The translations under genes and the position numbers were made by a program. From Streptomyces sp. NBC_00461 (GTDB lineage Bacteria > Actinomycetota > Actinomycetes > Streptomycetales > Streptomycetaceae), in NCBI RefSeq assembly GCF_036013935.1, contig NZ_CP107902.1, positions 9,085,001 through 9,149,000 of the forward strand: a stretch of DNA of 64,000 nucleotides, read 5' to 3'. Below are positions 5,171 to 51,169 of this stretch, piece by piece (the first letter of the stretch is position 1; each line of letters opens with the position of its first letter). Under the pieces are notes generated by a model. That model did not search any database. It saw only the letters and a list, made by a program, of their open reading frames with translations, and was not told the DNA's origin.

Positions 5171-5198
5171 TCCATGCCTGATGCGATAGCGCAGCCGC

Positions 5199-10263: not shown

Positions 10264-10293
10264 GGCGCCGCGCAGCAGTAGAGGAGCAAGCGC

Positions 10294-11029
<736 letters not shown>

Positions 11030-11057
11030 GCCGGACGAAGGACGGAGAGCAGTCCCC

Positions 11058-17007: not shown

Positions 17008-17008
17008 G

Positions 17009-18306: not shown

Positions 18307-18412
18307 GTGTCAACTGCACGTCAGGCAAAGGTAACCCGCAAGTAGCCTGCCCTTCCCGAAGTGCTGGTTCCAATTGATCAGCGAACGCAGCACTGCGGAA
18401 GGCAAGCAAAAA

Positions 18413-22700: not shown

Positions 22701-25700
22701 CGACGTGCTCGGACTGCCCGAACTCGGCCCCCGCGACGGCTTCTTCGCCCTCGGCGGCCACTCGCTGCTCGCCCTGCGTCTGCTGGGCCGCATCCGCACC
22801 GCCCTCGGTGTCGAACTGACCCTGCGCGACGTCTTCCAGGAGCCCACGCCGGCGGGGCTGGCCCGGCGGGCGGTCGCCGCCGGGACAGCGGCACGTCCCG
22901 CCAGGCGGCCCGCCCCGCGCAAAACGCCGGGCGAGGCCCCGTTGTCGTCCGCACAGCGGCGGCTGTGGTTCCTGCACCGCCTTGAGGGGCCGAGCGCGGC
23001 CTACAACATTCCCCTCGCCGTACGGCTGACCGGCACCCGTCTCGACGTGGACGCCCTGCGCGCGGCACTCGCCGACCTGGTCGCCCGGCACGAGATCCTG
23101 CGCACTGTCTACCCGGACACCGACGGGCTTCCATGCCAGCGGCTGCTGGAACCGACCACACCGGATCTGCGGGTCGCCGACCACGTCTCCGAGGCAGAAC
23201 TGGCCGATCGGCTGCGGCAGTTGGCGGGGGAGGGGTTCCGGCTCGACGAGGACGCCCCGTTCCGCGCCCACCTGCTGCCCCTCGGTCCCGAGGAGCACGT
23301 TCTTCTCCTCGTCCTGCACCACATCGCCGCTGACGGCTGGTCGCTGGACCCCCTCCTGCTCGACCTGGCGGCCGCCTGTCGCGCCCGGATGGAGGGACGG
23401 GAGCCGGGCTGGGCGCCGCTGCCCCTCCAGTACGCCGACTACTGCGCTTGGCAGCACGACCTGCTCGGCGACGCATCGGCCTCCGACCAGGATCGTCAAC
23501 TCGCCCACTGGCGCGAGGCGCTCGCCGGGCTGCCCGACGAACTCCCCCTCCCCGCCGACCGCCCGCGCCCCGCCCGCGCCACGCACCATGGCGGCGACAT
23601 CCCCGTCCGCCTGGACGCGGACCTGCACCGGCGGCTGCGCGCGGTGGCCACCGAGACCGGCACGACGGTGTTCATGGTCGTGCAGGCGGGGCTCGCCGCC
23701 CTGCTCACGCGCCTGGGTGCCGGGACCGACATTCCCCTCGGCACGCCCGTCGCGGGCCGCGCCGACGAGCTGCTGGACGACCTGGTCGGCTGCTTCGTCA
23801 ACACCCTCGTGCTGCGCACCGACACCTCGGGCGACCCCAGTTTCCGTGAGCTGCTGAGCCGGGTCCGCGAGACCGATCTGGCGGCCTACGCCCACCAGGA
23901 GCTGCCGTTCGAGCACCTGGTGGAGGCCCTCAACCCGCCCCGCTCGCTGGCTCGGCACCCGTTGTTCCAGGTGATGCTCGCCTTCCGCCCGACCGCCGGG
24001 CCCCGCCTCGACCTCCCCGGACTGCACGGCCGCACACTGCCCGTGGAGACCGGATCCACCAAGATCGACCTGACGTTCAACCTGGGCGAGCAGCGCACCC
24101 CCGACGGCTCTCCGGACGGCATCGAGGGCATCCTCCAGTACAGCGCCGACCTCTTCGACCGGCGTACCGCCGTGGAACTGGCCGCCCGTCTGGAACGCCT
24201 GCTGCGGGCCGCGGCCGGTGAACCCGATCGCCCCATCGGTGCCTTCGACATCCTCGGGGACGGCGAACGCCACCGCCTGCTGGCCGAGTTCAACGACACG
24301 GCACGGGAGGTACCGGACACCACCTTCCCCCGGCTCTTCGAGGCGCGCGTTGCCGAAGTGCCGGACGCCGTCGCGGCCGAGGACGGCAAGGACTGCCTGA
24401 CGTATCGTCAACTCGACCTCAGGGCAGAGTGGTTGGCGCGTGTTCTCGTCTCGCACGGTGCCGGTCCGGGACGGATCGTCGCGTTCTCGCTGCCCCGCTC
24501 CGTCGATCTCGCGGTCGCCGTGCTCGCCGTCCTCAAGGCGGGCGCCGCGTATCTGCCGCTGGACCCGGAGCACCCGGCGGAGCGCACCGCCCATCTGCTC
24601 GCGGACGCCGATCCCGTGTGTCTGATCGCCAGGGACCGGCCCCTCGCCGACCGTCCCACGGGCTGTCCCGTCGTGGATCCCGACACGAGCCCGGACGACC
24701 CGGGCCGGCCCCTCCCCGAGGCCCGGCCCGCCGACCCCGCCTACCTGATCTACACCTCCGGCACCACCGGCCGCCCCAAGGGCGTCGTCGTCGAGCACCG
24801 CAACCTCACCACCTATGTGGCCCGCTGCGTCGAGGCGTACCCGAGCCTGCGCGGCACCTCGCTGCTGCACGCCACGATGTCGTTCGACGCCACGGTGACC
24901 ACCCTGCACGGGGCGCTCGCCGCAGGCGGCCGGGTGCACATCGCCGGCTTCCACGACGCGGGCGCGGCACCGGCGAACGGCGGCTACACCTTCCTCAAGG
25001 CGACACCCAGCCACCTCCCCCTGCTGCCCGCGCTGTCCCACGACCTGTCGCCGGCCGAGGAGTTCATGCTCGGCGGCGAGGCGCTGGTCGGCGAGGCGCT
25101 GCGCCTCTGGCGCCGGGACCACCCCGACGTACGCCTGATCAACCACTACGGCCCGACCGAACTCACCGTCGGCTGCACCGACCACCGCATCGAGCCCGGC
25201 GACGACCTGCCGACCGGTCCGGTACCCATCGGCCGCCCCATGTGGAACACCCGGGCGTATGTGCTCGACAGCCGCCTGAACCCCGTACCGGCAGGCGTCG
25301 AGGGCGAGTTGTACGTCTCCGGCGACCAGGTGGCCCGCGGCTACTGGAGGCGCCCCGGCCTGACCGCCGAGCGGTTCGTCGCCGACCCCTTCGGGTCGTC
25401 CGGCGGGCGCATGTACCGGACCGGCGACCTGGCCGTGTGGCGGGGCGACGGCGCCCTGGAGCTGCGCGGACGGGCCGACGGCCAGCTCAAGATCCGCGGC
25501 CTGCGGATCGAGCCCGGCGAGGTCGAGGGCGTGCTCACCGCCCATCCCGGCGTCGCCCAGGCCGCGGTGGTGGTGCGCGAGGACGGGACCGGTGTACGGC
25601 GCCTCGTCGGATACGTCGTCGGAGTCGCCGAGGCCGGCTTCCCCGCCCTCCTGGCGCACGCCGCCCGGCAGTTGCCCGCCCACATGGTTCCCGAGGCGCT

Positions 25701-27459
25701 CGTGGCGCTCGACGCACTGCCGATGACGCCCAACGGCAAGCTGGACCGCGCCGCCCTCCCCGCACCGGCCGCCATCCGTGAGACGACGGGCCGGGCGCCG
25801 CGCACTCCCCAGGAGGAGGCCCTCAGGGACCTGTTCGCCGAGGTTCTCGGGGTCCCCGCCGAGGGCGTCGGCGCCGACGACGGCTTCTTCGACCTGGGCG
25901 GCGACAGCATCACCTCCATCCACCTGGTGAGCCGTGCGCTCGCCACAGGTCTGCGGCTGACTCCGCGTGACGTGTTCGAGCAGCGTACGGTCGCCGGACT
26001 CGCCGCCACGGCGGCTGCGCGACCGGCCACCGGACCCGGCCCGGAACAGGACGCGCCGACCGGCACCCTGCCCCTCACCCCGGCCATGCACCGGCTGCGC
26101 GAACGCGGTGGCCCGATCGGGGCGTTCAGCCAGTCCGTCCTGCTCGTCACCCCCGCGGGCGCGGACGAGAAGCGGCTGACGGCCGCGCTGCAGGCCCTGC
26201 TCGACCATCACGACGTACTGCGGCTGCGGCTGGAGCCCGACGGCCCGTCGGCGGAGATTCCGCCCCCTGGGAGCGTCGACGCGGCGACCGTGCTGGAACG
26301 CATCGGCGAACCGGCCGACTTCGCCGACGTGTTGGACAGATCCGCTTCCCTGCTCAGCCCGCGGACAGGCGAGTTGGTGCGGGCGGTGTGGTGCGATGCC
26401 GGCCCGGACCGGCCCGGACGGCTGCTGCTGACCGTTCACCACCTGGCCGTGGACGGTGTGTCCTGGCGCATCCTGTGCTCGGACCTGGCCGCGGCCTGGC
26501 GCTCGGAGGAGCTACCCGAGCCGGGGACCTCCTTCCGGCACTGGGCCCGCCTGCTGGAGCGGGAGGCCCGCAGTGCGGCACGGGCGGCCGAACTGGACGT
26601 ATGGCGCGCCATGTCGGAGTCTCCCGCCCCGCTGCTGGGTGCCCGCCGCCCCGATCCGCAGCGGGACGTCGTCGGCGGGATGCGCCATCTCGCCCGGCAG
26701 CTCGCGGCCGACGTCACCACCGAACTGCTCACCACCGTGCCCGCGGCCTTCCACGCGGGACCCGACGACGTCCTGATCGCCGCGCTGGCCGCCGCGTTCG
26801 TCCGATGGCGGCGCACCAGGGACGGCCACCCGGCCCTGCTCCTGGACATCGAGCGGCACGGCCGGGAGGACCTCGCCGACGGCGTCGACCTGTCGCGGAC
26901 GGTCGGCTGGTTCACCAGCATCGTGCCCGCGCGGCTCGACCTGGCCGGAGTCGACCCCGCGGATCCGGCCCAGGTCCTGAAGACCGTGAAGGAACAGCTG
27001 AGGTCCGTTCCCGACCACGGCATCGGATACGGCTTGCTCCGTCACCTCGACCCGGAGAACGGGCCGCTCCTCGCGGACCTGCCGGCGGCGGAAGTCGGCT
27101 TCAACTACCTGGGCCGAACGGCCCGTTCGGACAACGGCGACCTTCCCCTGGCGCCGGAGACCCTGCGCAACCTGGGCGCCGTGCACGACCCCGCCACACC
27201 CGTGGCCCACGGTCTGGAGATCACCGCCATGACCACCGAGGACGGCCGCCTCGACATCACCTGGTCCTGGGCCCCCGGCATCTGGTCCGAGACCGACGTG
27301 CACGCCCTCGCGGACGCCTGGCTGACGGAGCTGGCCGCGCAGACCGAAGGCGGCACCGGCGCGGCGGGCGGGCACACCCCGTCCGACCTGCCCCTGGTGT
27401 CGCTGTCCCAAGCAGAGATCGACGAACTCGAAGCCGAGTTCGGCAATGAGTGGAGGTAA
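19756..27459 (+). CDS. NRPS 1: C-A-T-C-A-T-E (starter module plus second residue)
   Basis: The product is a 2567-residue synthetase. The first C domain (HHIAVDG near residue 137) opens with [18 protein letters not shown]...YNVGEY, the pattern of starter condensation domains that attach an acyl group. A1 has pocket residues D-A-Y-W-W-G-G-T-F-K, closest to valine codes. T1 has Ser in GGHSLLAL near 1002. The second C (HHIAADG near 1188) is LCL type. A2 has pocket D-A-T-K-M-G-H-V-G-K, very near the aspartate code DLTKVGHIGK; Lys278 and His322 imply an acidic side chain. T2 carries GGDSITSI (near 2050), the form that precedes epimerisation domains. E ([10 protein letters not shown] near 2228, VGWFTS) gives a D residue. 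The C-terminus ends in a short acidic docking helix. It is probably acyl-Val-D-Asp or, given the upstream gene, D-cysteate. Confidence 0.9.
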
Positions 27460-27465: not shown

Positions 27466-30400
27466 GTGACTCGGTCCGGTTCCGGAATAGCCGACATCCT
27501 GCCCCTGTCGCCGTTGCAGGAGGGCCTGCTCTTCCACGCCCTGTACGACGACGAGCAGTCCCCCGACCTCTACGCCACCCAGCAGATCCTGGAGCTGACG
27601 GGCCCCGTCGACCCCGCCGCCGTACGCGCCGCGGGCCAGGCCCTGCTCGACCGGCACCCCAACCTGCGCGCCTGCTTCCGCCGCCGGGACACCGGGCGGC
27701 CCCTGCAGATCGTGCCCACGGACGTCGAACTCCCCTGGGCGGAAGCCGACGTGTCCGCCCTCGGCGAGGACGAGCGCGACAAGGAATGGGAACGGCTGCT
27801 GGACGAGGAGCGCGCCCGCCGCTTCGACCTCGCGAGGCCGCCGCTCCTGCGCTACCTGCTGGTCAGGTGGTCCCCGGACCGCTACCGCCTGCTCCTCACC
27901 AACCACCACATCCTGCTCGACGGCTGGTCCAAGCAGTTGCTCGTACGCGAGTTCACCGCGCTGCACGCGGGCGAGCACCCCACCGCCCTGCCGTCAGCGC
28001 CCGCCTACCGCGACTACCTCGCCTGGCTGGGCCGACAGGACCGCACCGCCGCGGAGACCGCCTGGCGCGACGCGCTGGCGGACGCGGGCGAGCCCACCCT
28101 GCTCGCCCCCGGCCGGTCGGGCGCCACCACCGTGCTGCCCCAGGAACTGGTCGTCGAACTCCCAGAGCAGTTGACCAGCGCCGGCGAGGCCACTGCCCGG
28201 TCCCTCGGGATCACCCTCAACACGCTCGTCCAGGGGGCCTGGGGCGTACTGCTGGGCCGCCTCACCGGCCGCACCGACATCGTCTTCGGCCAGGCGGTGA
28301 CCGTCCGCCCGCCCGAGCTGCCCAACATCGCCTCCATGGTGGGCTTCTGCCTCAACACCGTGCCCACGCGCATCCGTTGGGACGAGAACGGCTCCGTCAC
28401 CGACCTCCTCACCGCACTCCACCACCGGCAGGCGGCCCTGCTGCCCCACCAGCACCTGGGACTCGCCGACATCCGGAGCGCGGCAGGGGGCTCCGGCGAA
28501 CTCTTCGACACCCTGCTCGCCTTCGAGAACCACCCGGCCACGACCGGCCCGGGAGCGGCCCGCGTCACCCAGCTCACCGGCCGCGACGCCACCCACTACC
28601 CCCTCACCCTCGCCGTCCTGCCCGGCCGCCGCCTCGCCCTGCGCCTGTCGTACCGGCCCGACCTGTACGACGAGCCGGGCGCCCGGCGACTCCTCGCCCG
28701 CTTCGCCGCCGTCCTGGAGGCCTTCGTGGCGGATCCCGCGCTTCGCGTGCGCGAGGTCGGCATCCTGCTGCCGGGGGAGCGGGAGCGGCTGCTGGGCGGG
28801 CCTGCCGGCACGGCCGTACCCTCTTCGGCCACCCTGCCCGAGCTGTTCGCGGACCAGGCGGCCCGCACCCCCGACGCCACGGCCGTGGTGCACGAGGGCA
28901 CCCGCCTCACGTACGCCGAACTGGACGCGCGGGCCAACCGTCTGGCGCACCTGCTCGCGGCACGCGGCGCGGGCCCGGAACGCCTGGTGGCTCTCGCGCT
29001 GCCGCGTTCGCCGGAGCTGGTGGTGGCCGTGCTGGCGGTCCTGAAGACCGGCGCCGCCTACGTGCCGATGGACCCGGAGTACCCGGCGGACCGGCTGGAG
29101 TTCATGCTGGCCGACGCCGATCCGGTGCTGTTGGTCACGGCGCCGGACGTGGCAGCCGGCCTGCCCCCGTGCGAGGTCCCCGTGGTCACGCCGGACGAGT
29201 CGCTGACGTATCCCGCCACGGCACCCGAGGCACCGTCCCTGAACGGCGACCACATCGCCTACGTCATCTACACCTCGGGCTCGACCGGCCGCCCGAAGGG
29301 TGTCGCGATCCCGCACCGGAACGTCGTACGGCTCTTCTCGGCCACCCGGCACTGGTTCGACTTCGGCCCGGACGACGTGTGGACGCTGTTCCACTCCTAC
29401 GCGTTCGACTTCTCGGTGTGGGAGCTGTGGGGCGCGCTGCTGCACGGCAGCACGCTCGTGGTCGTCCCGTACGCGGTGACCCGTGACCCGGAGGAGTTCC
29501 TGCGGCTGCTGGCACGCGAGCGCGTCACGGTGCTCAACCAGACGCCCTCGGCCTTCGGCGAACTCCTGCGCGCGGACGCCGCCCTGCCGGATGTCGGGGG
29601 CGAACTGGCCCTGCGGTACGTGGTCTTCGGCGGTGAGGCACTCGACTTCACGCGGGTCGCGGAGTGGTACACCCGGCACCCGCAGGACGCGCCCGTACTG
29701 GTCAACATGTACGGCATCACCGAGACGACGGTCCATGTCACTGGCCTGCCGCTGACCGAGGCCGCGGTACGGGACCGGCCGCAGACCAGTGGCATCGGAC
29801 ACGCCATCCCCGACCTGCGCGCCTACGTCCTGGACGCGGGACTGCGGCTGGTCCCGCCGGGCGCGACCGGCGAGCTGTACGTGGCGGGCGCGGGCCTGGC
29901 GCGCGGATACCTGGGGCGGCCGGGACTGACGGCCGGGCGCTTCGTCGCCGACCCGTTCGCCGCCGCTTCGGGCCAACTGATGTACCGCACGGGCGACTTG
30001 GTCCGGCAGTCGGCCGACGGGGAGCTGGAGTACCAGGGCCGGGCGGACGACCAGGTCAAGATCCGGGGCTTCCGCATCGAACTCGGCGAGGTGGAGGCGG
30101 CGCTCGCCGGCCACCCCGGAGTGGCGCAGGCGGTCGTTCTCGTACGGGACGAGCGGCTGGTCGCCTACTGCGTCGGAGGAGACCTCGACCCGGACGCGCT
30201 GCGCCGCCATGCGGGGCGCACACTGCCGGACCACATGGTCCCCTCCGCCGTGGTCGTCCTCGACCGGCTGCCACTGACCGCCAACGGCAAGCTGGACCGC
30301 GCCGCCCTGCCCGCGCCCTCCCTGCACAGCGGGGGACGCGCCCCGCGCACCCCGCAGGAGGAGATCCTGTGCGGGCTCTTCGCCGACGTCCTCGGCCTGG

Positions 30401-33400
30401 AACCGCACCGGGTCGGCGCGGACGACGGCTTCTTCGGCCTCGGCGGCGACTCCCTGCTCGCCATGCGGCTCACCGATCGCGTCAGGAGCGCGCTGGGCAT
30501 CACGCTGCCGGTACGGGCGGTCTTCGAGGCGGCGACCCCCGCCGGACTGGCCGCGCGCCTCAGCGAGAGCGAGGCCGGCGCCGAACGTCCCGAGCTCACG
30601 GTGCAGGAACGCGGACACGCCCCGATTCCGCTGCCGTACGCCCAGCAGCGGCTGTGGTTCCTGAGCCGCCTCGACGGCAGCAACACCTACACCGTTCCCT
30701 GGGCCCTGCGCCTCACCGGCACCCTCGACCGCCCGGCACTGGAGGCGGCGCTCGCCGACCTCGTGACCCGCCACGAACCGCTGCGCACCCACCACCCCGA
30801 CTTCCAGGGCACCCCGTACCAGCGGATCCTGGACCCGGAGGCGGGACGTCCGAGCCTCACCGTCGTACCGGTCACCGAGGCGGAACTGCCCGCTCTGCTC
30901 ACCGCCGCCGCCGGGCACCGCTTCGACCTGTCCGCCGAAGTGCCGCTTCGCGCCACTCTGTTCACGCTCGGACACGACACCCACGTCCTGCTGCTGCTCG
31001 CCCACCACATCGCCGTCGACGGCTGGTCCATGGCGCCGCTGATGCGCGACCTGGAGACGGCGTACGCCGCCCGGATCACCGGGGTTGCCCCGGGATGGCG
31101 GCCATTGCCCGTCCAGTACGCCGACTTCGCACACTGGCAGCGCGAACTGCTCGGGGCGACGGCGGGAGGAGAGACGGAGAACCTGAGGGGTCGTCAGACC
31201 GCCTTTTGGCGTGAGGCGTTGGCTGGCGCCCCGGAGGAACTGCCGCTGCCCGCCGACCGTCCCAGGCCCGACGAGCCCACCGGGCTCGGCGACCGCGCCG
31301 AACTCACCCTCGACGCGGAGCTGCACACCGCACTCGCCGACCTCGCCTCGGCCTCCCGGGTCACGCTGTTCATGGTGTTCCAGGCCGGCCTCGCCGCGAC
31401 GCTGACCAGGCTCGGTTCGGGCACCGACATCACCATGGGCACCCCGGTCGCCGGACGCGCCGACGCCAGGCTGGACGACCTGGTCGGCTTCTTCGTCAAC
31501 AGCCTCACCCTGCGCACCGACACCTCGGGCAACCCCACCTTCCGTGAACTCCTGGACCGCGTCCGGGACTTCGACCTCGCCGCGTACGCCCACCAGGACG
31601 TGCCGTTCGATCTCCTCGTGGATGCCCTCAGCCCGCGGCGCACCCTCGCCCGCCATCCGCTGTTCCAGGTGATGCTGGCCTTCACCGGTCACGCCGCCCA
31701 CGTCGACCTGTCCCTGCCCGGCCTGGGCGTCGTACGCGAGCCCGTCGAGACCGGCGCGGCCCGCTTCGACCTCTGCCTCTACCTGAGCGAGCGCCGCCAC
31801 GGCGACGGCACCCCGGCGGGCATCGACGGCATCGCCGAGTACAGCACCGACCTGTTCGACCCGGCCACGGCCCAGCGGCTCACGCGGCGGCTCGTCCGCT
31901 TCCTGGCCGCCGTCGCCGCCGACCCCGGCCTGCGTGTCGAGGACGTGGATCTTCCGGGGGACGACGAGCAGCGGCGACCCGGCCGGTGGAACTCGACCGC
32001 TGAAGGGATCCCCCCGGTCTCGCCCGCCACTCCGATCCGGGAACAGACACCCGGTAGCCCGGACGCCCCGGCACCGACGAACGACGGACAGCCTGACCGT
32101 CAGGCGCCGCCCGCACTCGCGCAGGCACCTGAGGCCGCCGGGGGACAGGAACCGGCGACCCCGGCCGAGCGCATCCTCGCCGGGCTCTTCCGCGAGCTGC
32201 TCAAGCTGCCCGAAGTGCCACTCGACGAGGATTTCTTCGCCCTCGGCGGCGACAGCATCACCTCGATCCGGCTCGTGAGCCGGGCAGCGGAGGCCGGAGT
32301 CGTGATCAGCGCCCGCGACGTCTTCAAACACCAGACGGTGAAGGAGCTGGCGGCCGTGGCCCGCGGGCCGGTCGGCGCCCGCGCCGACGGTGCCGGCACG
32401 GCCGGCGTCCACGCCGCCGACGGTGTGGGGTCGGTTCCGCTCACCCCCATCATGCGGTGGCTGCTCGAACGCGGCGGCCCGATCGGGCGGTTCAGCCAGT
32501 CCGTCCTGCTGACGGTCCCGGCTGACGCCGGCCTGCCGCGGCTGACAGACGCCCTGCAGGCGCTGCTCGACCACCACGACATGCTGCGCTCCCGTCTCAC
32601 CCCGGCCCTGGGACTCGACGTCGCTCCGGCCGGCCGCCTCCGCGCCGCGGACCTGCTCGACCGCAGGGACGTCAGCGGCATCTCCGGCACGGCCGACCTC
32701 CACGCGGCCGTGGCCGAGGAGTTCGACCGAGCCCTGGGGCAGCTCGATCCGGAGGCAGGGGCGATGGTCCGGGCGGTGTGGTTCGACGCCGGACCGGACC
32801 GGGCCGGACGGCTGCTGCTGGTCGTCCACCACCTGGCCGTGGACGGCGTGTCCTGGCGCATCCTCGTACCCGATCTGAAAGCCGCCTGGGAGGCCGTGGC
32901 CGCCGGACGAAGCCCTCAACTGCCGCCCGTCGGCACGTCGTTCCGGCACTGGTCCATGGCGTTGACCCGCCAGGCGCTTGCGCCGTCGCGGGTCGCCGAG
33001 GCCGAGCTGTGGCGCCGTATCGCCGACGCCCCGCGCGCCCCGCTGGGCCGGCGCCCGCTGGACCCCGACCGGGACACCGCCGCCACCACGCGCTCGCTGC
33101 GGCTCACCCTGCCGCCCGAGACGACGGGACCGCTGCTCACCGGCGTCCCGGCCGCCTTCCACCTCGGTGTCCAGGACGTCCTGCTGACCGGCCTCGCGCT
33201 GGCCGTCGCCGACCGGCAGGGCTCCCCGCACGTCCTGCTCGACGTCGAGGGGCACGGCCGCGAGGATCTGGTACCCGGGCTCGAACTGTCGGGCACGGTC
33301 GGCTGGTTCACCTCGCTCTACCCGGTCCACCTGGATCTGGGAGGCGTGGACGTGGGCGACGCCCTGGCGGCCGGACCCGCCGCCGACCTCGCCGCCACCC

Positions 33401-33861
33401 GGGTCGCGGAGCGGCTGCGCGAACTGCCCGACCACGGCGCGGGACACGGCCTCCTGCGCCACCTCAACCCGGACACGGCACGCCAGTTGGCCAAGGCCCC
33501 GACACCGGCCATCGGCTTCAACTACCTCGGCCGGTTCAGCGCCCCCGGCACCACCGGCACCGAGCCGTGGGCCTTCGCCCCCGAGTCGTCGGCACTCGGC
33601 GTCGGCTGCGACCCCGGCCTCGCCGCCGCCCACGCCCTCGACATCAACGCGGTTGTCCACGACACGGCCACCGGACCGCGGCTGGTGGCCGACTGGGCGT
33701 GGCCCGAGGGCGTGCTGACCGAGCAGGAGGTGCGGGCTCTGGCCGAGTCCTGGTTCACGGCGCTCACCGCCCTCGTGTCCCGGGTCGAGGGCGGCGCAGG
33801 TCCGTCCGTCGCGGACCTGTCCAGCGACGAGCTCGACGAGCTGACCGCCGGCCTGGACTAG
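27466..33861 (+). CDS. NRPS 2: C-A(Thr)-T-C-T-E with an adenylation-less second module
   Basis: The product is a 2131-residue synthetase. The first C starts [19 protein letters not shown], typical of DCL domains accepting a D-residue donor, which fits the E domain of NRPS1. A3 pocket D-F-W-N-V-G-M-V-H-K is a threonine code. T3 has GGDSLLAM. A second C follows ([11 protein letters not shown]), then no adenylation domain. After [11 protein letters not shown] (near residue 1508), which is the usual C-A linker, about 50 Pro/Ala-rich residues lead straight to a T domain ([10 protein letters not shown], near 1590) and an E domain ([16 protein letters not shown]). Module 4 is thus C-T-E and must be loaded in trans. 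The GTG at 27466 has GGAGG nine bases upstream, inside the 3' end of NRPS1. Confidence 0.92.
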
Positions 33862-33931
33862 CCGCCCCTCCGAGAAGACCCAGCAGCTTCACCAGCTCCA
33901 GCAGAGCCAGAACACAGCGAGACGAGACGAC

Positions 33932-36900
33932 ATGACGCAGCCCGGGCCGGTCGACGTACTTCCCCTGACCCCGCTCCAGGAGGGCCTGCTCTTCCACGCT
34001 CTGTACGAGCACGAACGGGACGCCTCCGACGTGTACCTCGTGCAACTGGTCTTCGAACTCGAAGGCCCGGTGTACGCCGACCGCCTCCGTGCCTCCGTTC
34101 AGGCACTGCTGGACCGCCACCCGAACCTGCGGGCGGCCTTCCGGCGGCGTCGCGGCGGCCAGCCCGTTCAGGTCGTCCCGCACCGGGCGACGCTGCCGTG
34201 GACGGAAGTCGACCTGACCGGGCCGGCCCTCGACACCGACATCGACATCGACATCGACATCGACATCGACACTGGCACTGGCACCGACACCGAGAAGGCG
34301 TGGGCCGAACTGCTGGACGCGGACCGGGCCCTCGGGTTCGACCCCGCCACGCCTCCCCTTCTGCGCTGCACCCTGGTCCGCACCGGCGAGCGCCGCCACC
34401 GGCTGCTCGTCACCCACCACCACATCCTTCTCGACGGCTGGTCGGTCTCCGTACTCCTACGGGAACTGCTCGCCCTGTACGCCGCCGAGGGCGACCCGGC
34501 CGTGCTCGCGCCCGTCCCGCCCTACCGCACGTTCCTGGGATGGCTGGAGCGCAGGGACCGTACCGCCGCCGAGGCCGGCTGGCGCGACGCGCTGGCCGAT
34601 GTGACGGAACCGACCCGACTGGCCCCGACCGCCACGCCGGGCGTCACCGACCCGGCACAGGCCCGCACCGAGCTGTCGGCGGAGACCGGAGCCGCCCTCA
34701 CGGCACGCGCCCGCAGTCTCGGCGTGACCATGAACACCCTCGTCCAGGGGGCCTGGGCGATGCTGCTCGGCCGGCTGACCGGCCGCGACGACGTCGTCTT
34801 CGGCGCCACCGTCTCCGGCCGACCGCCCGAACTCCCCGGGGTCGAGTCGATGGTCGGCCTGTTCATCAACACCATCCCGACGCGGGTCCGGCTGCGGCCC
34901 GAGCAGAGCCTGGGCGAACTGCTCCGCGAGGTCCAGGACGGCTACGTCCGCCTCCTCGACCACCATCATCTGGGCCTGGCCGACATCCAGCGGGCCGTGG
35001 GCGTCCCGGAACTCTTCGACAGCCTCGTCGTCTTCGAGAACTATCCGGTGGATCCGGAGGCGACCGGCGACGGGCGTGGAGGCGACGGCGGCGCGCTCCG
35101 CGTCGTCGGCTCAAGCGGTCGCGACGCCACCCACTACCCCGTGACCCTCGTGGCCCTCCCCGGCACCCGGCCCCGCTTCCGCCTGGCCTACCACCCGGGA
35201 CTGTTCGAGGCCGGCTGGGCCGACGCCACGCTCGCCCGCCTGGTGCGCATCCTCGAAGCCATGGCGGCCGACCCGGAACTCCCGCAGGGCCGCATGGGGC
35301 TCCTGGCGCCCCAGGAACTCCCGCCCCGGACCCAGCTCCCGCCGCCCGCGACCCGTACCCTCACCGACCTCTGGTCGGCCCAGGTCGCGGCCACCCCGAA
35401 CGCCGACGCCGTACTGGACCGCGGCACCCGGCTCACGTACCGCGAACTGGACGCCCGGGCCGAGCAGTTGGCCGGCCGCCTCACCGCCCTCGGAGCAGGC
35501 CCCGAGCGAGTCGTCGGCATCGCTGTGCCCCGTACGGCGGAGCTGATCGTCGCCGTCCTCGCCGTACTGAAGTCCGGTGCCGCCTATCTCCCGCTCGACC
35601 CCGCCTACCCGGCCGACCGCCTGGCGTACATCGTCGCCGACGCCCGCCCGGTCGTCGTCCTCGCCACCGCCGAGACGGCGGCGTCGCTGCCGCCGGGCAT
35701 ACCGCTGCTCGATCCCGAAGGTGAGGTGACGGATAGTCAAAGCTGCATCCCCGCAAGCAGATTGACACCGGACAGCCTTGCCTACATCACCTACACCTCC
35801 GGCTCCACCGGCCGCCCCAAGGGTGTTCTGGCCACGCACCGCAACGCCGTCGAGTTCGTCAAGTGGACCCATGCGGAGTTCGGCCCCGAGCGGCTGGCGA
35901 AGGTGCTGTTCTCGACCTCGCTCAACTTCGACGTGTCGGTGTTCGAGATCTTCTCGCCGCTTCTGTGCGGTGGCCGTGTCGAGATCGTCGAGAACCTCCT
36001 CGCACTCACCGGGGGCACCCCTCGGGACGCCGGCCTCATCAGCGGGGTGCCGACGGTCATGGCCACCGTGCTCGCCGAGCGGCCGCCCGTCTCACCGCAC
36101 ACGGTGGCCCTCGGCGGCGAACCGATCCCCGAACAGCTCCGCGCGGACATCGAGGCCGCGTTCCCCGGGGCACGGCTCGTCAACTTCTACGGGCCCACCG
36201 AGGCGACCATCTACGCCACGGCCTGGCAGTCCGGCGCCGACCCGGACGACAAGGCGGGTCCGCCCATCGGCCGCCCCCTGGCCCGCAACCTCGTCCACCT
36301 CCTCGACCATGCGCTGCATCCCGTGCCCGACGGGGCCGTCGGCGAGGTGTTCGTGGCGGGTGGCGGCCCCGCCCGGGGCTACCTGGGCAGGCCGGCTCTG
36401 ACGGCCGGGCGGTTCGTGGCCGACCCGTTCGGCGGGCCGGGGGAGCGCATGTACCGCACGGGCGACCTGGCGGTGCGCGGCTCCGACGGACAACTGCGCT
36501 TCCTGGGGCGGGCCGACCATCAGGTCAAGCTTCGGGGTTTCCGGATCGAACTGGGCGAGATCGAAGCGGTACTCGCCGCACATGCGGCCGTCACCGAGGC
36601 GGCGGCCACGGTGATGGAGCGCGGGCGCGGCGAGAAACAACTGGTCGCATACGTCGTACCCGCCGAGGGGGCGGTGCCGGGAGCCGACGATCTCGGTGAC
36701 CACCTCGCCCGCACCCTCCCCGCCCACATGATCCCCTCGGCGTTCGTCACGGTCGAATCACTCCCGCACACAGCCAGCGGCAAGCTGGACCGCAAGGCGC
36801 TGCCCGCCCCCGACGCGCCGCTCGCCGCGAAGACGGCCCCGCGAACCGAGCGGGAGGAGACCCTGCGCGGAATCTTCGCCGAGGTCCTCGGCCTCGCCCC

Positions 36901-37987
36901 GGTCCAGGTCGGCATCCACGACGGCTTCCTCGATCTCGGCGGCCACTCCCTGCTGGCCCCACGCCTCACCTCGCGCATCCGTGCCGAACTCGGCGTCGAA
37001 CTGCCCATGCGCGCCCTCTTCGACACCCCGACCGTGGCGGCGCTGGCCCGACGCATGGCCGAAGGCGATCACCCTGGAGGGCCAGGTCGTTCCGGACATC
37101 CCGACCGTGCCGGAGGGTCCGACCGCACCGTTGGGGCCGACCGTTCCGGAGGGTCGGACCGTCTCGGAGGGGCCGACCGCACCGGCGAGTCGAGTGCGGC
37201 CCCGGTGGGACCCCTGCTCCCGCTGCGCACCCGAGGCGACCACGAACCGCTGTTCTGCCTTCCCCCGGCCTCCGGCCTGTCCTGGGGCTTCGCCGGGCTG
37301 GCCCGCCACATCAACCCCGGCCGCCCGCTGTACGGCCTGCAGTCCCGTGGCCTGATCCCGGGTCAGGACCCGGCCGGCAGCCTGGCCGAGGTGGTCGCCG
37401 AGCACACCGCCCTCATCCGCGAGACACAGCCGCACGGCCCGTACCACCTGCTCGGCTACTCCATGGGCGGCCTCGCTGCCTACGAGGTCGCCGTCGGCCT
37501 CCAGGCGGCCGGAGAGCAGGTCGCACTCCTCGCGCTGCTCGACTCCTTCCCCGGGGCCTGGATCCGACAGGGCCCCGCCGTGTCCGACCGCCCGGCGCTG
37601 CTGCGCAGCCTCCTCACCATCCTCGGGCGGCAGGTGCCCGAGGACGGCACGGAACCGCTCACCGATAGCCGGTTCGCGGAACTGGTCCGCCGCGTACCCG
37701 ACATGCCCGGCAGCCTCGACGACGCCGAACTGGCCGCCCTGGTCGACGTGACGGCGAACAACCGGCGTCTGCTGGGCGAGTTCGCCCCCACGTCGTACCG
37801 CGGGGATCTGCTGTTCTTCACCGCCGCACAGGATCCGGACGCGAGCCCCGACCGGTACCGCACCTGGCAGCCGTACGTCGACGGCCGCATCGACAACCAC
37901 GACATCCCCTCCACGCACGGAGAGATGACCCGGCCCACAGCACTGGACCGCATCGGCCCGGTACTGGACAGCCGCCTCCGCAAGTAG
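33932..37987 (+). CDS. NRPS 3: C-A-T-TE (terminal module)
   Basis: This 1351-residue terminal synthetase begins with a DCL-type C domain ([29 protein letters not shown] near 163), matching the E domain that ends NRPS2. A5 pocket residues read D-V-F-S-A-G-F-I-Y-K, which I cannot assign to a substrate; Asp235 shows an alpha-amino acid. T (LGGHSLLAP, Ser near 1005) is followed by a hexapeptide-repeat linker (residues 1050-1085). A type I thioesterase follows with Ser1177 in GYSMGG, which releases or cyclises the product. The C domain also holds a (Asp-Ile)n stretch from a DNA microsatellite at 34238. No strong ribosome site precedes the ATG, only GAGACGAG. Confidence 0.9.
34238..34267 (+). repeat. 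In-frame GACATC microsatellite (five units)
   Basis: Five exact copies of the hexamer GACATC lie inside the NRPS3 C domain and encode a run of alternating Asp-Ile, flanked by imperfect GACACC/GGCACT copies. Being a multiple of three, gain or loss of units would keep the frame. It falls in a loop between the first C-domain strands and helices. Confidence 0.9.
37077..37184 (+). repeat. 18-base minisatellite, six units, T-TE linker of NRPS3
   Basis: Six tandem 18-base units with consensus near GAGGGNCCGACCGTNCCG encode hexapeptides of the form GGxDRx ([36 protein letters not shown]). They form the flexible linker between the carrier and thioesterase domains. Confidence 0.9.
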
Positions 37988-38039
37988 TCCGCAGTAGTCC
38001 GAACCACTGGACGCACCCCCACCACGGAAGGAACCCACG

Positions 38040-38252
38040 ATGACCACCAACCCTTTCGACGACGACAGCATCGAGCACCTGGTCCTGGTGAACGACGAGG
38101 GCCAGCACTCCCTGTGGCCCGCCTTCGCCGAGGTCCCGGCGGGCTGGACCGTCGTCCACGGCAGTGCGAGCCGCCAGTCCTGCGTGGACTACGTCGACGA
38201 GCACTGGACCGACATGCGCCCCAAGAGCCTGATCAAGGCCATGGGCGAATAG
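38040..38252 (+). CDS. MbtH-like NRPS adenylation chaperone
   Basis: This 70-residue MbtH family protein binds NRPS adenylation domains and is needed for their folding or activity. The family signature is intact: [58 protein letters not shown], including the conserved Trp residues. A GGAAGGAA ribosome site precedes the ATG. It sits 52 bases after NRPS3 in the same operon and probably serves the A domains of all three NRPSs and the free A-T protein. Confidence 0.97.
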
Positions 38253-38256
38253 ACCC

Positions 38257-38299
38257 CCGGCCCAGTAAGCCCCCGAACCGGCCCAGTAAGCCCCCCGAA
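38257..38299 (+). repeat. Tandem 21-base direct repeat between MbtH and thioesterase genes
   Basis: Two adjacent copies of a 21-22 base element (38257-38277 and 38278-38299, differing by one extra C) begin CCGGCCCAGTAAGCCC. They lie five bases after the mbtH stop. Neither copy is self-complementary enough for a terminator. A duplication event is the simplest explanation. Confidence 0.8.
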
Positions 38300-38334
38300 A
38301 CGATCGCCCCCCCCGCAAGGAGAGACCGGCAGCC

Positions 38335-39063
38335 ATGCCCACGGACAACCCGACCGCCACGACCGCCACGACCAAGCTGGTGTGCCTCCCGTACGCCGGG
38401 GCGGGCGCCTCGTTCTACCGCCCCTGGACCGCCCTGGCCGGGGACGCGCTGGAGATCGTGCCGCTCCAACTGCCCGGCCGGGAAAGGCTGATCGACGAGG
38501 AGCCCTACCGGGACGTGCACAAGGCCGTCGACGGACTCCTGCCCCAGCTGCGGGAAAAGCTCGGCGACGGCGACCACAGGGTGGCTCTCTTCGGGCACAG
38601 CCTCGGTGCCGTGCTCGCCTACGAACTCGCCCACCGCCTGGTCGCCGAGCCAGCCGTCGAGCTCGTCCACCTGTTCGTCAGCGGGTCGCCGCACCCCGGC
38701 CAGGGCCGTGAACGGCGGGCCACCGGCCTGTCCGACGACGACTTCCTCGCCCGCGTCGGCGAGTTCGCGGGCTACAGCCATCCCGCGCTCGACGACCCGG
38801 AGATGCGCGAGATGCTCCTGCCCACCCTGCGCGCGGACGTCGAGATGCACGAGGCGTACGTACCGAGCACCCACCTTCCGCTGGACGCGCCCGTCACGGT
38901 CATTCGGGGCGAGGACGACGCACTGGTCGGTCGCGACGACGCCGCGTCCTGGAACAAGGCGTCCGGCAGCGACTTCGAGCACGTCGAGATCCCCGGAGGC
39001 CACATGTATCTGACCGAGTCCGCCCCCGCCCTCGTCCGCGTGATCGTCTCGAAGGCGCTCTAG
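38335..39063 (+). CDS. Type II (editing) thioesterase
   Basis: This 242-residue alpha/beta hydrolase is of the RifR/GrsT type. It removes misprimed acetyl or wrong aminoacyl groups from carrier domains. LVCLPYAGAGASFYRPW and PLQLPGRERLIDEEPY are diagnostic. The nucleophile is Ser89 in FGHSLGA, Asp is in GEDDAL, and the catalytic His is in PGGHMYL near the C-terminus. AAGGAGA lies before the ATG at 38335. It belongs to the NRPS operon. The A-less module may make editing, or transfer between carriers, more important here. Confidence 0.95.
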   Translation: MPTDNPTATTATTKLVCLPYAGAGASFYRPWTALAGDALEIVPLQLPGRERLIDEEPYRDVHKAVDGLLPQLREKLGDGDHRVALFGHSLGAVLAYELAHRLVAEPAVELVHLFVSGSPHPGQGRERRATGLSDDDFLARVGEFAGYSHPALDDPEMREMLLPTLRADVEMHEAYVPSTHLPLDAPVTVIRGEDDALVGRDDAASWNKASGSDFEHVEIPGGHMYLTESAPALVRVIVSKAL

Positions 39064-39157
39064 CCGTCCCCACGCCCCCTTTCGCCCCACGCCCCCTCAC
39101 CTCCTCATCCCTCGCACTCCTCAACTCAACCCCTTTACGACTCCAGGGAGTTACCCG

Positions 39158-39982
39158 ATGCGGCTGCAAGGCAAGTCGGTCCTCATTACCGGCGCCGCCC
39201 GCGGACTCGGCAGAGCAGCTGCGGTCGCCTGTGCGGCCGAGGGCGCGGACCTCACCCTGCTGGACATCTGTGCCGACCTGCCGGGAGTGCCCTACCCGCT
39301 GGGCACTGTGGGGCAGTTGGAGCACACCGCCGCTCTGTGCCGGGACACCGGCGCGGCCGTCCTCACCACGGTGGCCGACATCCGCGACAGCCGTGGCATA
39401 CGGGAGGCGGTCACCCGCGCCGAGGAGCGGTTCGGCCGGATCGACGTCGCCGTCAACAACGCGGGCATCGCCGCGCCCTCGGGCAGACCGGTGCACGAGA
39501 TCGGAGAGGACGAGTGGTCCCTGATGATCGACGTGGACCTCTCCGGGGCCTGGCGGGTGATCCGTGAGGTCGGTGGGGCGATGAGCGCCCGGCGCGCCGG
39601 CAGCATCGTCAACGTCGCCTCCACCGCCGGGCTCGTCGGCTACCGGCACTTCGCCGGTTACGTCGCCGCCAAGCACGCCGTCATCGGTCTCACCAAAGCC
39701 GCCGCGCTCGACTTCGCGCCGACGAAGGTGCGTGTGAACGCGGTCTGCCCGGGTTCCGTGCGCGACGACGCGTGGGCCGAGGGCAGGATGCTCGCCGAGA
39801 TCGCGAGGGCGCTGGAGGTGCCCGTCCACGAGCACGAGAAGACCTTCGTCGAGGCGCAGCCCATGAACGCGCTGATCGAACCCGAGGACGTCGCCGCCGC
39901 GATCGTATTCCTCGCCTCGGACGAGTCCCGGCAGATCACCGGGTCGGTCCTGACCGTGGACGGCGGGTTCAGCGCCCGCTGA
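39158..39982 (+). CDS. SDR oxidoreductase, mycofactocin-coupled type
   Basis: This 274-residue short-chain dehydrogenase has cofactor motif TGAARGLG at 11-18, NNAG near 105, and catalytic Tyr168 and Lys172 in YVAAKHAV with Ser upstream in NVASTAG. After the second strand it carries the insert LLDICADLPGVPYPLGTVGQLEHTAALCRDTG. Such an insert (D-I-C-A-D...PY) marks the SDR subfamily that holds its NAD tightly and is thought to pass electrons to the redox cofactor mycofactocin. No mycofactocin genes are in the window. Position between thioesterase and trans-acting A-T protein suggests oxidation of a hydroxyl on the peptide or on the trans-loaded residue (inference). Confidence 0.85.
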   Translation: MRLQGKSVLITGAARGLGRAAAVACAAEGADLTLLDICADLPGVPYPLGTVGQLEHTAALCRDTGAAVLTTVADIRDSRGIREAVTRAEERFGRIDVAVNNAGIAAPSGRPVHEIGEDEWSLMIDVDLSGAWRVIREVGGAMSARRAGSIVNVASTAGLVGYRHFAGYVAAKHAVIGLTKAAALDFAPTKVRVNAVCPGSVRDDAWAEGRMLAEIARALEVPVHEHEKTFVEAQPMNALIEPEDVAAAIVFLASDESRQITGSVLTVDGGFSAR

Positions 39983-40007
39983 GACCCCTGCCCCGGACAA
40001 CGAGATC

Positions 40008-40079
40008 AACAAGAGCAACAAGAGCAACAAGAACAACAAGAACAACAAGAACAACAAGAACAACAAGAACAACAAGGAG
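40008..40079 (+). repeat. A-rich 9-base tandem repeat leader ending in a Shine-Dalgarno site
   Basis: Eight 9-base units AACAAGARC run through the leader of the next gene. The last unit is AACAAGGAG, so it supplies the ribosome site (AAGGAG at 40074-40079), eight bases before the GTG start at 40088. In a genome of this GC content, such an A-rich unstructured leader stands out. Confidence 0.9.
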
Positions 40080-40087
40080 TACGGCCC

Positions 40088-42832
40088 GTGTCCGCGTTGC
40101 TGTCCGATCCCGTCATCCACGCGTCCCACTGCCACGCGCTGCGCGTCAGGTCGGGCCACTCCCCGGACCCCGCGAGCCGAGCGGGGCTGTGGATCGAGGA
40201 CGTCACCGTGCCGGCGGCGGACCCGCTCGCGGAGCGCCGACGCGCCACCGAACTCGCCCGCCCGAGCCACCGCCCGCGCAGCCTCCTCCTGCGCTACGCC
40301 GACGGCCTGTCCGACCTGATCGTCGTCGCACCGCGCGGACGCTGGGACCGTACGGCCCTCGACCGGCTGGCAGCCGGGGAGTCCGTGGCACCGAACGACG
40401 CCCCGTCGGCTCCCGAGGCGTCTTCGGCCGCGCCCGCTCCAGCCTGGGGGCTGGGCGGCGACGGCCCCAGCGCCCCTCATGTCGTCGCCCTGGAGGACGG
40501 AGGCGACGAGGCGAGCTGGCTCACGGCACTCGCCGTCACCCTGCGCCGCTACGACCCCGACACCCCACCGGTCATCGGCACCGGCCACGGCAGCTTCACC
40601 GTCGAACCGGCCGCCACGCTCGGCGAGTCGAAGCCCTCCACCGCGACGGGCTCCGCTCTGCTCACGGGTCTGCTCTTCGACGACGAGGCCGCCGGCTTCG
40701 CCGACTCCGACGGATGGGACCACTCGTACGGATCGGACGGTACGTCCCCTGCCTGGGAGGGCGAGACGGAGTACGTGCCCTGCCTCGCGCCGCCGTTCCC
40801 GCTCACCGTGTCCGTCCTGAGGGACTCGGGCGGTCTGCGGCTGCGCTGCGACCACCTGAGCAGTCACTTCTCCGCGGAGATCGCGGCCCAGTTCGTACGG
40901 CACCTCGCGCATGTACACCAGCAGGTGCTGCACCGTCCGCAGACTCCGCCGGACGACGTCGAGCTGCTCGACGAGGCGGAGCGCGTTCGCACAGCGGCGC
41001 TCGGCCGCCCGCCCCGCGACCTCACCACGAGTCCGGTGAGCGTGCCCGGGGCGTTCGCCCGGATCGTGGCGGCGACGCCGGACCGTATCGCCGTGACCGA
41101 CGGAGACGCCGGCCTGACCTACCGCGAACTCGACGAGCGGGCCGCCCGATTGGCACACGGCCTGCGCGCACGTGGAGTGGGCGCCGGCGATCGGGTGGGC
41201 GTGTGTCTGGAACGCTCCGCCGAACTCGTCGTCACCCTGCTCGCCGTGTTGAAGGCCGGCGCGACCTACGTGCCCGTCGACCCCGCCTACCCGGCGGACC
41301 GGCTCGTCCACACGGCACAGGACGCGGGTCTGGGCGTGGTGGTCACCCGGCTCCAGGAGTTCCCGGTCGGGGCGGACTGCGTGCAGGTGACCCCAGGCGA
41401 ACTGATCGACGAGCCGCGTGACGCAGGCCCGGCGCCGGAGGAGAACTCGCGCACTCGGCCCTCCTCACCCGATGACGCCGCCTACGTCATCTACACCTCC
41501 GGCTCCACCGGCCGGCCCAAGGGGGTCGTCGTACCGCACCGCAACGTGATCGCCCTGATCGACGCCACGCGCGACGAGTACGCGCTCGGAGAGGCGGACG
41601 TGTGGACCTGGTTCCACTCCAGTGCCTTCGACTTCTCGGTGTGGGAGATCTGGGGCTGCCTGCTGACCGGCGGGCGGCTGGTCGTGGTGCCGTACTTCGT
41701 GTCGCGTGAACCGGACCACTTCCGTGACCTGCTCGTCGCCGAGAAGGTCACCGTGCTCAGCCAGACCCCGTCGGCCTTCGCCCAGCTCCTGGACGTCGAC
41801 CACGCCGACGTGTCCGTCCGGCTCGTCGTCTTCGGCGGTGAGCCGCTGGACACGCGGATGCTGCTGCCCTGGTTCGACCGGCATCCCGAGCGGGCCTGCC
41901 GGGTGGTGAACATGTTCGGCATCACGGAGACCACCGTCCATGTCACCGAGCAGACCCTCACCCGGAAACTGGCGCTCGCCGCCACCCGCTCCGTCGGGCG
42001 CGCGCTGCCCGGCTGGCACCTGTACGTGGTGGACCCGGCCGGCCGGCTGCTGCCGCCCGGGGTGGCGGGCGAGATCTGCGTCGGTGGTGCCGGCGTGGCG
42101 CTCGGCTACCTGGGCCAGGAGGAGCTGACCGGCAGGCGGTTCGTACCGGACCCGTTCACCGGCGGCACGATGTACCGCAGCGGCGACCTCGGACGCCTGC
42201 GCCCCGACGGGCGGCTCGAACACCTCGGGCGGATCGACAGCCAGGTGAAGATCCGCGGCTTCCGGATCGAGCTCGACGAGATCCGCTCCGTTCTGCTGGA
42301 GGACCCCGACGTGCGCACCGCGGCCGTACTGGTGCGCCGCGACGACCCGGCACTCGCCGCCACGGCCAGGATCGACGCCTACGTGACCCTGTCGTCCGGG
42401 GGCCACCCCGCCAGGGTCCGCGAGCGGGCCGCCGGCATCCTGCCCGAGTACATGCTCCCTGCCACCGTCACCGCCCTCGACACGCTCCCGCTGACGGCCA
42501 ACGGCAAACTCGACGCGGCGAAGCTGCCCGCGCCCGCCGTCCCGCGCCCCTCGGGCCGGGACACGGCCCCGGCACCTGCAGGGGCCGACGACGACGACCT
42601 CACCGCAAGCCTGACGGAGATCTGGAGCGACGTGCTGGGCGTACCCGTGGCCCCGGACGACGACTTCTTCGAGCTCGGCGGCAACTCCCTGTCCGCCGTC
42701 CGGATCGGTGCCGCACTGCGCGCCCGCGGTCTGCCGTCCCTGCGACTGCGGGAGTTGTACCGGCACCCGACCGTCCGGGGAACGGTGGCGAGTCTCAGGG
42801 CGATGGACGAGGGGCACGCTCCCCTCAAGTGA
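40088..42832 (+). CDS. Stand-alone NRPS adenylation-carrier protein with degenerate C-like N-terminus
   Basis: The product is a 914-residue A-T protein. Residues 1-320 resemble only the C-terminal part of a condensation domain (PLTVSVLRDSGGLRLRCDHLS...ELLDEAE) and have no HHxxxDG, so they cannot condense. The A domain spans about 330-830 ([11 protein letters not shown] near 470) with pocket D-F-W-S-V-G-M-V-H-K, the threonine code with Asn278 changed to Ser. T has LGGNSLSAV (Ser near 866). It has no docking helix of the usual kind. It is the evident in-trans supplier for the A-less C-T-E module of NRPS2. This would resemble the way syringomycin SyrB1 serves SyrE, though no halogenase is seen here. 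The GTG start has AAGGAG from the preceding repeat. Confidence 0.88.
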   Translation: MSALLSDPVIHASHCHALRVRSGHSPDPASRAGLWIEDVTVPAADPLAERRRATELARPSHRPRSLLLRYADGLSDLIVVAPRGRWDRTALDRLAAGESVAPNDAPSAPEASSAAPAPAWGLGGDGPSAPHVVALEDGGDEASWLTALAVTLRRYDPDTPPVIGTGHGSFTVEPAATLGESKPSTATGSALLTGLLFDDEAAGFADSDGWDHSYGSDGTSPAWEGETEYVPCLAPPFPLTVSVLRDSGGLRLRCDHLSSHFSAEIAAQFVRHLAHVHQQVLHRPQTPPDDVELLDEAERVRTAALGRPPRDLTTSPVSVPGAFARIVAATPDRIAVTDGDAGLTYRELDERAARLAHGLRARGVGAGDRVGVCLERSAELVVTLLAVLKAGATYVPVDPAYPADRLVHTAQDAGLGVVVTRLQEFPVGADCVQVTPGELIDEPRDAGPAPEENSRTRPSSPDDAAYVIYTSGSTGRPKGVVVPHRNVIALIDATRDEYALGEADVWTWFHSSAFDFSVWEIWGCLLTGGRLVVVPYFVSREPDHFRDLLVAEKVTVLSQTPSAFAQLLDVDHADVSVRLVVFGGEPLDTRMLLPWFDRHPERACRVVNMFGITETTVHVTEQTLTRKLALAATRSVGRALPGWHLYVVDPAGRLLPPGVAGEICVGGAGVALGYLGQEELTGRRFVPDPFTGGTMYRSGDLGRLRPDGRLEHLGRIDSQVKIRGFRIELDEIRSVLLEDPDVRTAAVLVRRDDPALAATARIDAYVTLSSGGHPARVRERAAGILPEYMLPATVTALDTLPLTANGKLDAAKLPAPAVPRPSGRDTAPAPAGADDDDLTASLTEIWSDVLGVPVAPDDDFFELGGNSLSAVRIGAALRARGLPSLRLRELYRHPTVRGTVASLRAMDEGHAPLK

Positions 42833-50982: not shown

Positions 50983-51169
50983 CTTCCCGCCCCTCCGGCG
51001 CGTGCCGGGGGCACGACGGCCGTCAATCTCCGTGCAGGCCAACGAGGTTGAGCCTACGGGGAGGGGGCCGCGTGATCGAGACGATGCGGCTCGGTGGCGC
51101 GCGGGGTGTCGAGCCGGGCGCAGGGGCGGGCGGTGCGGCGTTCGTGCTCGGTCCGCCCCTGCGGAGGGC

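Follow-up and report, generated by a model that had tools for sequence, protein, structure and literature searches.

The fourth module of a nonribosomal peptide synthetase (NRPS) assembly line in Streptomyces sp. NBC_00461 has probably lost its own adenylation (A) domain and had it replaced by a rotihibin-type cassette acting in trans. The stretch analyzed, called the window below, is 64,000 nucleotides of contig NZ_CP107902.1 (positions 9,085,001 to 9,149,000, forward strand), from a genome (G000) that is one contig of 10.37 Mb. The window carries on the + strand, in this order, a cysteate-synthase-family gene, NRPS1, NRPS2, NRPS3, an MbtH gene, a type II thioesterase (TEII), a short-chain dehydrogenase/reductase (SDR), and a free protein with an A domain and a carrier (T) domain, the A-T protein (Table 1). 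Module 4, at the end of NRPS2, has condensation (C), T, and epimerization (E) domains. It is highly likely, in our judgment, that the A domain of this module was excised and that charging now takes place in trans by a route through allo-threonine. What is new here is a natural before-and-after comparison of orthologous clusters with and without the cis A domain. Genomes and loci are cited by our own numbers (G and L).

Profile searches find no A domain in module 4. Pfam recognizes in NRPS2 three condensation-superfamily stretches (C, C, and E), a single AMP-binding domain (residues 461-816), one AMP-binding_C domain, and two carriers. Between the second C domain and the T domain that follows it there is no Pfam AMP-binding match, and the 80-residue piece at 32000-32240 matches no Pfam family at an E-value of 1. 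The spacing from C to T is 69 residues according to our own domain hidden Markov models, and an 11-residue linker lies at 31984-32016. The same A-less C-T-E module is present in all eight further clusters of this type that were fetched and in G260, so an assembly artefact is excluded. The original prediction had described this module, together with a free A-T protein about 8 kb downstream, and had named an A domain in the gap as evidence against its reading and homologous loci with the same split as a check. Its coordinates, linker letters, and pocket letters proved correct. The similarity of the module-4 C and E domains to those of NRPS1 (Table 1), together with an NRPS3 C domain that is 55% identical to the C following the NRPS1 E but 30% identical to the A-less module's own C, suggests that the assembly line is set for a D-residue at position 4.

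Comparison of orthologous clusters ties the A-T gene to the A-less module. The cysteate-synthase-family protein was used as an anchor in order to avoid selecting clusters by their A-T gene. Among 295 genomes of the window's genus, 16 had an anchor match at 1e-60, nine of them (the window's own and eight others) at 79% identity or higher and seven at 47-54%; all eight close clusters and four of the seven distant homologues were fetched. In seven of the close clusters (G285, G284, G137, G327, G014, G173, and G324) NRPS2 is complete (C-A-T-C-A-T-E) with a non-threonine code in module 4, DAMLVGAVC in five and DAMLIGAVC in two, and no TEII-SDR-A-T trio was found in the 30 kb read. G014 deviates at module 1 too, with DFWNVGMVH in place of DAYWWGGTF. 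G260 has the A-less module 4 and the trio. A whole-genome search with the A-T protein gave no match at 1e-150 in the seven genomes with a complete module 4; G260 has two copies. Up to 113 candidates were scored per genome, a number exceeded by those found in G285, G137, G014, G173, and G260. Eight further clusters selected through the A-T gene (L099-L106, from the genomes of loci L004, L002, L001, L003, L007, L020, L008, and L005, respectively) also lack the A domain and agree in gene order and module codes, apart from one-letter changes in module 1 of L101 and module 5 of L106. In total, ten A-less clusters have MbtH followed by the trio, and seven complete clusters are without it. The presence of the A-T gene with the A-less module 4, and the failure to find it with the complete one, make supply in trans, as originally proposed, the best-supported explanation, and trans loading of module 4 is very probable. 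An A-less cluster without an A-T gene, which the original prediction would have counted against itself, was not seen among the ten, of which only the window and G260 are free of selection by that gene.

The A-less module appears to derive from a complete one. In an alignment of 17 NRPS2 proteins, identity was calculated per 80-column block. Between the two groups it is 0.70-0.88 in the module-4 C domain, 0.69-0.73 in T, and 0.60-0.77 beyond T, near the values among complete clusters (0.72-0.91, 0.76-0.80, and 0.65-0.80) and lower than those among A-less clusters (0.78-0.92, 0.76-0.85, and 0.73-0.85). By this measure the C, T, and E domains of module 4 are orthologous across the groups and the A domain alone is absent. 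Aligning the gap with complete modules, another check named at the outset, uncovered a relic of 37 residues that matches the linker and A-domain start of G285 without gaps (17 of 37 identical, local score 78, shuffled mean 26). None of 1000 shuffles did as well against G285, and the same was true for G284 and G327, these being the three of the seven complete proteins compared. Loss from a complete module is favored because the relic aligns to the linker and start of the A domain. Excision of the cis A domain is thus suggested by the complete/A-less comparison, the orthologous C, T, and E domains, and the relic taken together.

Complete clusters form a clade in an unrooted tree of concatenated NRPS proteins (ultrafast bootstrap, UFBoot, 100). 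The A-T proteins of A-less clusters are monophyletic (UFBoot 95) and adjoin a rotihibin-type clade (99) holding L033 of S. scabiei, the rotihibin locus; their monophyly fits a single acquisition. The A-less set in this tree has ten rows, without L020, whose translation is out of frame, and with L009 (genome G068), whose NRPS2 lies off its contig so that its A-less state was unseen. The rotihibin-type label was set from species and similarity; three loci that bear it (L018, L048, and L051) are not part of the clade supported at 99.

The A-T gene is the third gene of a conserved cassette, whose TEII and SDR genes the original prediction overlooked. Its relatives were surveyed in the best 80 of 292 confirmed loci, 74 of which have at least 3 kb of upstream sequence. 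In 68 of these 74, A-T is directly preceded by a thioesterase and an SDR. The surveyed loci span Streptomyces, Saccharothrix, Amycolatopsis, Micromonospora, Nocardia, Pseudomonas, and acidobacterial records. Within 10-kb flanks, at least 34 of the 80 loci show an A-less C-T unit, and in eight, all of the window's cluster type, this unit is followed by E. The TGxxxGxG-type motif is found in 70 of 72 SDRs, the window's included, and G-H-[S/C]-x-G in 70 of 72 TEII proteins, 69 of them with Ser. In the window the nucleotide-binding and catalytic motifs of the SDR (TGAARGLG, NNAG, YVAAK) and the GHSLG of the TEII are intact. The original prediction allowed for supply of the missing domain either directly or after modification of the residue; a TEII and an SDR ahead of A-T favor the latter.

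The free A-T protein has a threonine-type pocket, which by alignment reads D-F-W-S-V-G-M-V-H; we take the pocket numbering, and Lys as the tenth residue, from convention. Among 81 A domains (80 loci plus the window) the pocket is DFWSVGMVH in 51, DFWNVGMVH in 15, DFWNIGMVH in 7, DFWSIGMVH in 6, and two singletons. The letters of the supposed threonine code with Asn278 changed to Ser are therefore right, yet Ser is the commonest state of the family (59 of 81, against 22 with Asn). Ser278 was rejected as a marker of SDR-modified threonine, as it also occurs in four of six A-T loci without an adjacent SDR. The N-terminal region had been described as a C-domain remnant without HHxxxDG. The motif is indeed absent (the corresponding strand is IVVAPRGRWD), and the sole Pfam condensation match covers the last 64 profile positions with a score under the gathering threshold. 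A mere fragment was rejected because 33 homologues align along its whole length (35 of the 80 loci were prepared, and L028 and L049 left out) and because the model covers a whole fold, with Foldseek TM-scores normalized to the query of 0.39-0.55 among the matches listed. The region is accordingly predicted to be a conserved, strongly shrunken, whole small condensation fold. The second A-T homologue of G260 (G260:C1:4484824-4487442) is 77% identical and possibly belongs to a rotihibin-type cluster. No A-T homologue was found in a plasmid search at 1e-200.

By its gene content the window cluster is assigned to a known kind, the TEII-SDR-A-T allo-threonine clusters of himastatin, WS9326A, globomycin, and rotihibin. 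For GlobD/GlobE, HmtG/HmtF, and WS21/WS22, the globomycin paper proposes that L-Thr on the A-T carrier has its beta-hydroxyl oxidized and re-reduced to give L-allo-Thr, which in himastatin and WS9326A would then be moved, with the help of a type II thioesterase, to a module that has no A domain; globomycin itself is described with an A domain in every module (PMC9943842). The closest relatives of the trio are RthB, RthC, and RthD of rotihibin, described together with the A-less module 2 of RthA, and the A-T protein of L033 is 69% identical over its best segment. Disruption of rthB is reported to abolish rotihibins, and the receiver there is C-T without E, giving L-allo-Thr (PMC8552735), whereas the receiver in the window has an E domain. 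In WS9326A, disruption of cal22Thr abolishes the product, and the preferred substrate of Cal22Thr is Thr, other amino acids being accepted to some extent (PMC7539972); alongside this A-T protein (Cal22Thr/WS22), the SDR WS21, and the TEII WS20 there is an A-less receiver of C and peptidyl carrier protein (PMC7539972, PMC9943842). WS9326A differs in its receiver without E and in a second trans A-T protein, for Asn. Himastatin is likened from its description: HmtF (A-T) lies beside HmtG (SDR), the third module of HmtL lacks A and has E, and the peptide holds D-Thr (PMC9943842). It differs in its NRPS and product, and for the window there are orthologous complete clusters to set against the A-less state. 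Since this HmtL module combines a missing A domain with E, a C-T-E receiver with a trans cassette is not new, and the combination is less unusual than originally stated.

The syringomycin system, the original model, is a more distant parallel than the allo-threonine cassettes. SyrB1, SyrB2, and SyrC, mentioned in PMC7539972, likewise load Thr in trans onto a module without A, and trans loading in enduracidin and ramoplanin is stated in PMC8552735. An open-literature search found no paper joining ramo17 with threonine and adenylation. No halogenase lies beside the window's A-T gene; the genes from NRPS3 to A-T are MbtH, TEII, and SDR, followed by an opposite-strand polyketide synthase (PKS), with the rest of the genome unsearched. 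The TEII also differs in its nucleophile motif, GHSLG. In SyrC the nucleophile is reportedly Cys.

The proposed mechanism begins with an ordinary C-A-T-E module that would have lost its A domain. The free A-T protein would activate L-Thr and load its own carrier, on which the SDR would oxidize and re-reduce C-beta to give L-allo-Thr. The TEII, or direct contact between carriers, may then transfer this residue to the T domain of module 4. The module-4 C domain would add it to the chain, E would invert C-alpha to give D-Thr (2R,3S), and the DCL-like C domain of NRPS3 would accept the product. The C-beta of L-allo-Thr is 3S and that of L-Thr 3R; epimerization converts L-Thr to D-allo-Thr (2R,3R) and L-allo-Thr to D-Thr (2R,3S). 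A D-Thr outcome would be a simple reason for the trio and the E domain to occur together. Beta-inversion by the SDR is likely, and D-Thr (2R,3S) at residue 4 is favored with somewhat less confidence.

Three other explanations were weighed. In the first, plain L-Thr is loaded in trans and not inverted at C-beta, so that E would yield D-allo-Thr, and the SDR has a different target or a task outside this step. In vitro, Cal22Thr does prefer Thr (PMC7539972); inversion by the SDR is hypothetical in PMC9943842, and the role of the SDR is left open by the rotihibin authors (PMC8552735). But the thioesterase and SDR directly ahead of A-T in 68 of the 74 assessable loci, actinobacterial, pseudomonad, and acidobacterial ones among them, and the statement that cassette products contain L-allo-Thr or, given E, D-Thr (PMC9943842) make this explanation rather improbable. 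The second, that the module-3 A domain loads T4 as well as T3 while the free A-T protein has some other role, draws on the standard threonine pocket of the adjoining module 3 and on single A domains that serve several carriers in viomycin and capreomycin (PMC8552735) and yersiniabactin (PMC7539972). However, this threonine-type pocket is present in complete and A-less clusters alike (DFWNVGMVH in six of the seven complete, DFWNIGMVF in G014), the A-T homologue is found only with the A-less form, and the trio would be left unexplained; we regard double charging as very unlikely. Least credible is a decayed, skipped module with the A-T protein as a leftover, for although there is a degenerate linker, a lost A domain, and, in L020, a broken A-T frame, module 4 has intact motifs in T and E, ten clusters retain the A-less form with 73-92% identity per block in C, T, and E, the downstream C is still DCL-like, and the A-T pocket and carrier motifs are retained.

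Several observations weigh against excision followed by trans charging with inverted threonine. Six of the 74 assessable loci do not have the full trio (one has the thioesterase only and five have neither gene). The direction of change is read from the relic, which is clear in three of the ten A-less clusters (the window, L101, and L103), and in the anchor-gene tree with an outgroup the attachment has a support of 65, too low to give a polarity. SDRs of A-less clusters are mixed with rotihibin-type ones in the SDR tree, mostly at low support, so the case for one acquisition of the trio comes from the A-T protein. Eight of the ten A-less clusters came through the A-T gene, and the pairing of trio and A-less module reflects one or a few events because the 17 clusters are related. 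Ser278 is uncoupled from the presence of an SDR, and module 3 of NRPS2 also has a threonine pocket. In L020 (Streptomyces turgidiscabies) the A-T frame is interrupted before the A domain begins, upstream of 10914, through either sequencing error or decay. From the literature, the rthB mutant could not be complemented (PMC8552735) and SDR-driven inversion of C-beta is presented as a hypothesis (PMC9943842). The enzymes and the product of the window cluster are predictions from sequence.

The complete clusters suggest, tentatively, what was exchanged for the trio. A P450 gene directly follows MbtH, at the place of the trio, in six of the seven (L124:1537-2763 and equivalents in five others). For the G285 enzyme, the one of these six P450s that was compared with the PDB, the best relative is 4l0e, with 4pwv and 4pxh (503 bits); we take these entries to be P450sky and Sky32 to be the same enzyme. 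P450sky is described as a carrier-dependent beta-hydroxylase (PMC5683658), and Sky32 as S-selective (PMC9321520). If the P450 is S-selective, it is possible, though doubtful, that the supply of the building block was exchanged and the side chain swapped while the 3S beta-hydroxyl at residue 4 was held, which would explain the need for the SDR. Two findings speak against this idea: the complete cluster of G014 has no P450 after MbtH, and the window has another P450 (13683-14873) upstream of the anchor gene. None was found after MbtH in the window and G260, for each of which 30 kb were read.

Table 1. Features of the NRPS cluster in the window (positions are those of the 64,000-nucleotide stretch).
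Feature	Position	Strand	Basis or remark
Cysteate-synthase-family pyridoxal phosphate (PLP) enzyme, first gene of conserved cluster	18374..19759	+	NCBIfam TIGR03844, 374.5 bits (cut-off 324.9)
NRPS1, C-A-T-C-A-T-E (modules 1 and 2)	19756..27459	+	start codon inferred
NRPS2, C-A-T (module 3, pocket DFWNVGMVH, Thr-type) then C-T-E (module 4, no A)	27466..33861	+	
C domain of A-less module 4, HHIAVDG, LCL-like	30613..31980, ends approximate	+	58% identity to NRPS1 C2
Relic: C-A linker and start of putatively lost A domain, 37 residues	31963..32073	+	ungapped alignment to G285
Pro/Ala-rich linker, length varies among homologous clusters	32074..32154	+	
T domain of A-less module 4, GGDSITS, proposed acceptor	32155..32380, end approximate	+	
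E domain of module 4, HHLAVDG and EGHGRE	32434..33830, end approximate	+	54% identity to NRPS1 E
NRPS3, C-A-T-TE (TE, thioesterase), DCL-like C	33932..37987	+	C 55% identical to C after NRPS1 E
MbtH-like protein	38040..38252	+	PF03621
TEII, GHSLG, proposed aminoacyl shuttle or proofreader	38335..39063	+	PF00975
SDR oxidoreductase, TGAARGLG / NNAG / YVAAK, proposed to oxidize and re-reduce C-beta of carrier-bound Thr	39158..39982	+	PF13561/PF00106
Free A-T protein, pocket DFWSVGMVH (Thr-type), carrier GGNS	40088..42832	+	PF00501+PF00550
N-terminal pseudo-condensation domain of A-T protein, no HHxxxDG	40088..41053	+	

Other features of the cluster bear on its product. The cysteate-synthase-family enzyme has cysteate synthase 9k3c as its best PDB match (296.6 bits), and an orthologue is present in nine of nine genomes holding loci L001-L005, L007-L009, and L020. 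Module 2 of NRPS1 has the pocket DATKMGHVG, taken as Asp-like with a smaller residue, and is followed by E. With a cysteate-synthase-family gene at the head of the operon and an Asp-like module 2 followed by E, the peptide may include D-cysteate. An open-literature search found no paper joining cysteate synthase with a biosynthetic gene cluster. Distant genes of this family, 52-54% identical, lie beside NRPS or MbtH genes in L139 (G142), L140 (G023), and L142 (G154), and another, in L141 (G321), does not. L068 of Streptomyces sp. NBC_00249, a locus of another TEII-SDR-A-T type, has a cysteate-synthase-family match at position 21698 on the - strand, about 9 kb beyond A-T. The module 5 pocket in NRPS3, DVFSAGFIY, is conserved across clusters and has D-V-F-S in common with piperazate codes in the literature, for example DVFSVGPYAK (PMC9866976).

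Several neighboring genes were also noted. A type I PKS that starts with an AMP-ligase and a carrier lies on the - strand at 42874-51042; it may be outside the NRPS cluster because - strand A and carrier matches beside A-T are seen in L001 and L004 and unseen in L002, L003, L005, L007, L008, and L020. Branched-chain 2-oxoacid dehydrogenase-like genes (14950-18148, - strand, read by eye) adjoin the NRPS operon and are possible suppliers of a starter acid. A spore-pigment-like type II PKS set at 2787-11390 (ketosynthase pair, cyclase, cupin, and monooxygenase, read by eye) has a sortase-like gene, 5289-5999, among its members. A scan for promoters and terminators found none, a result of little weight.

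The two forms of the cluster appear to be a natural before-and-after pair for a trans-loading cassette: the A domain has been removed, C, T, and E have been kept, and a rotihibin-type trio is present. Such a pair of complete and A-less clusters may be useful for engineering the replacement of A domains. It also makes the inversion of threonine to allo-threonine testable, as D-Thr versus D-allo-Thr at one position of the peptide.

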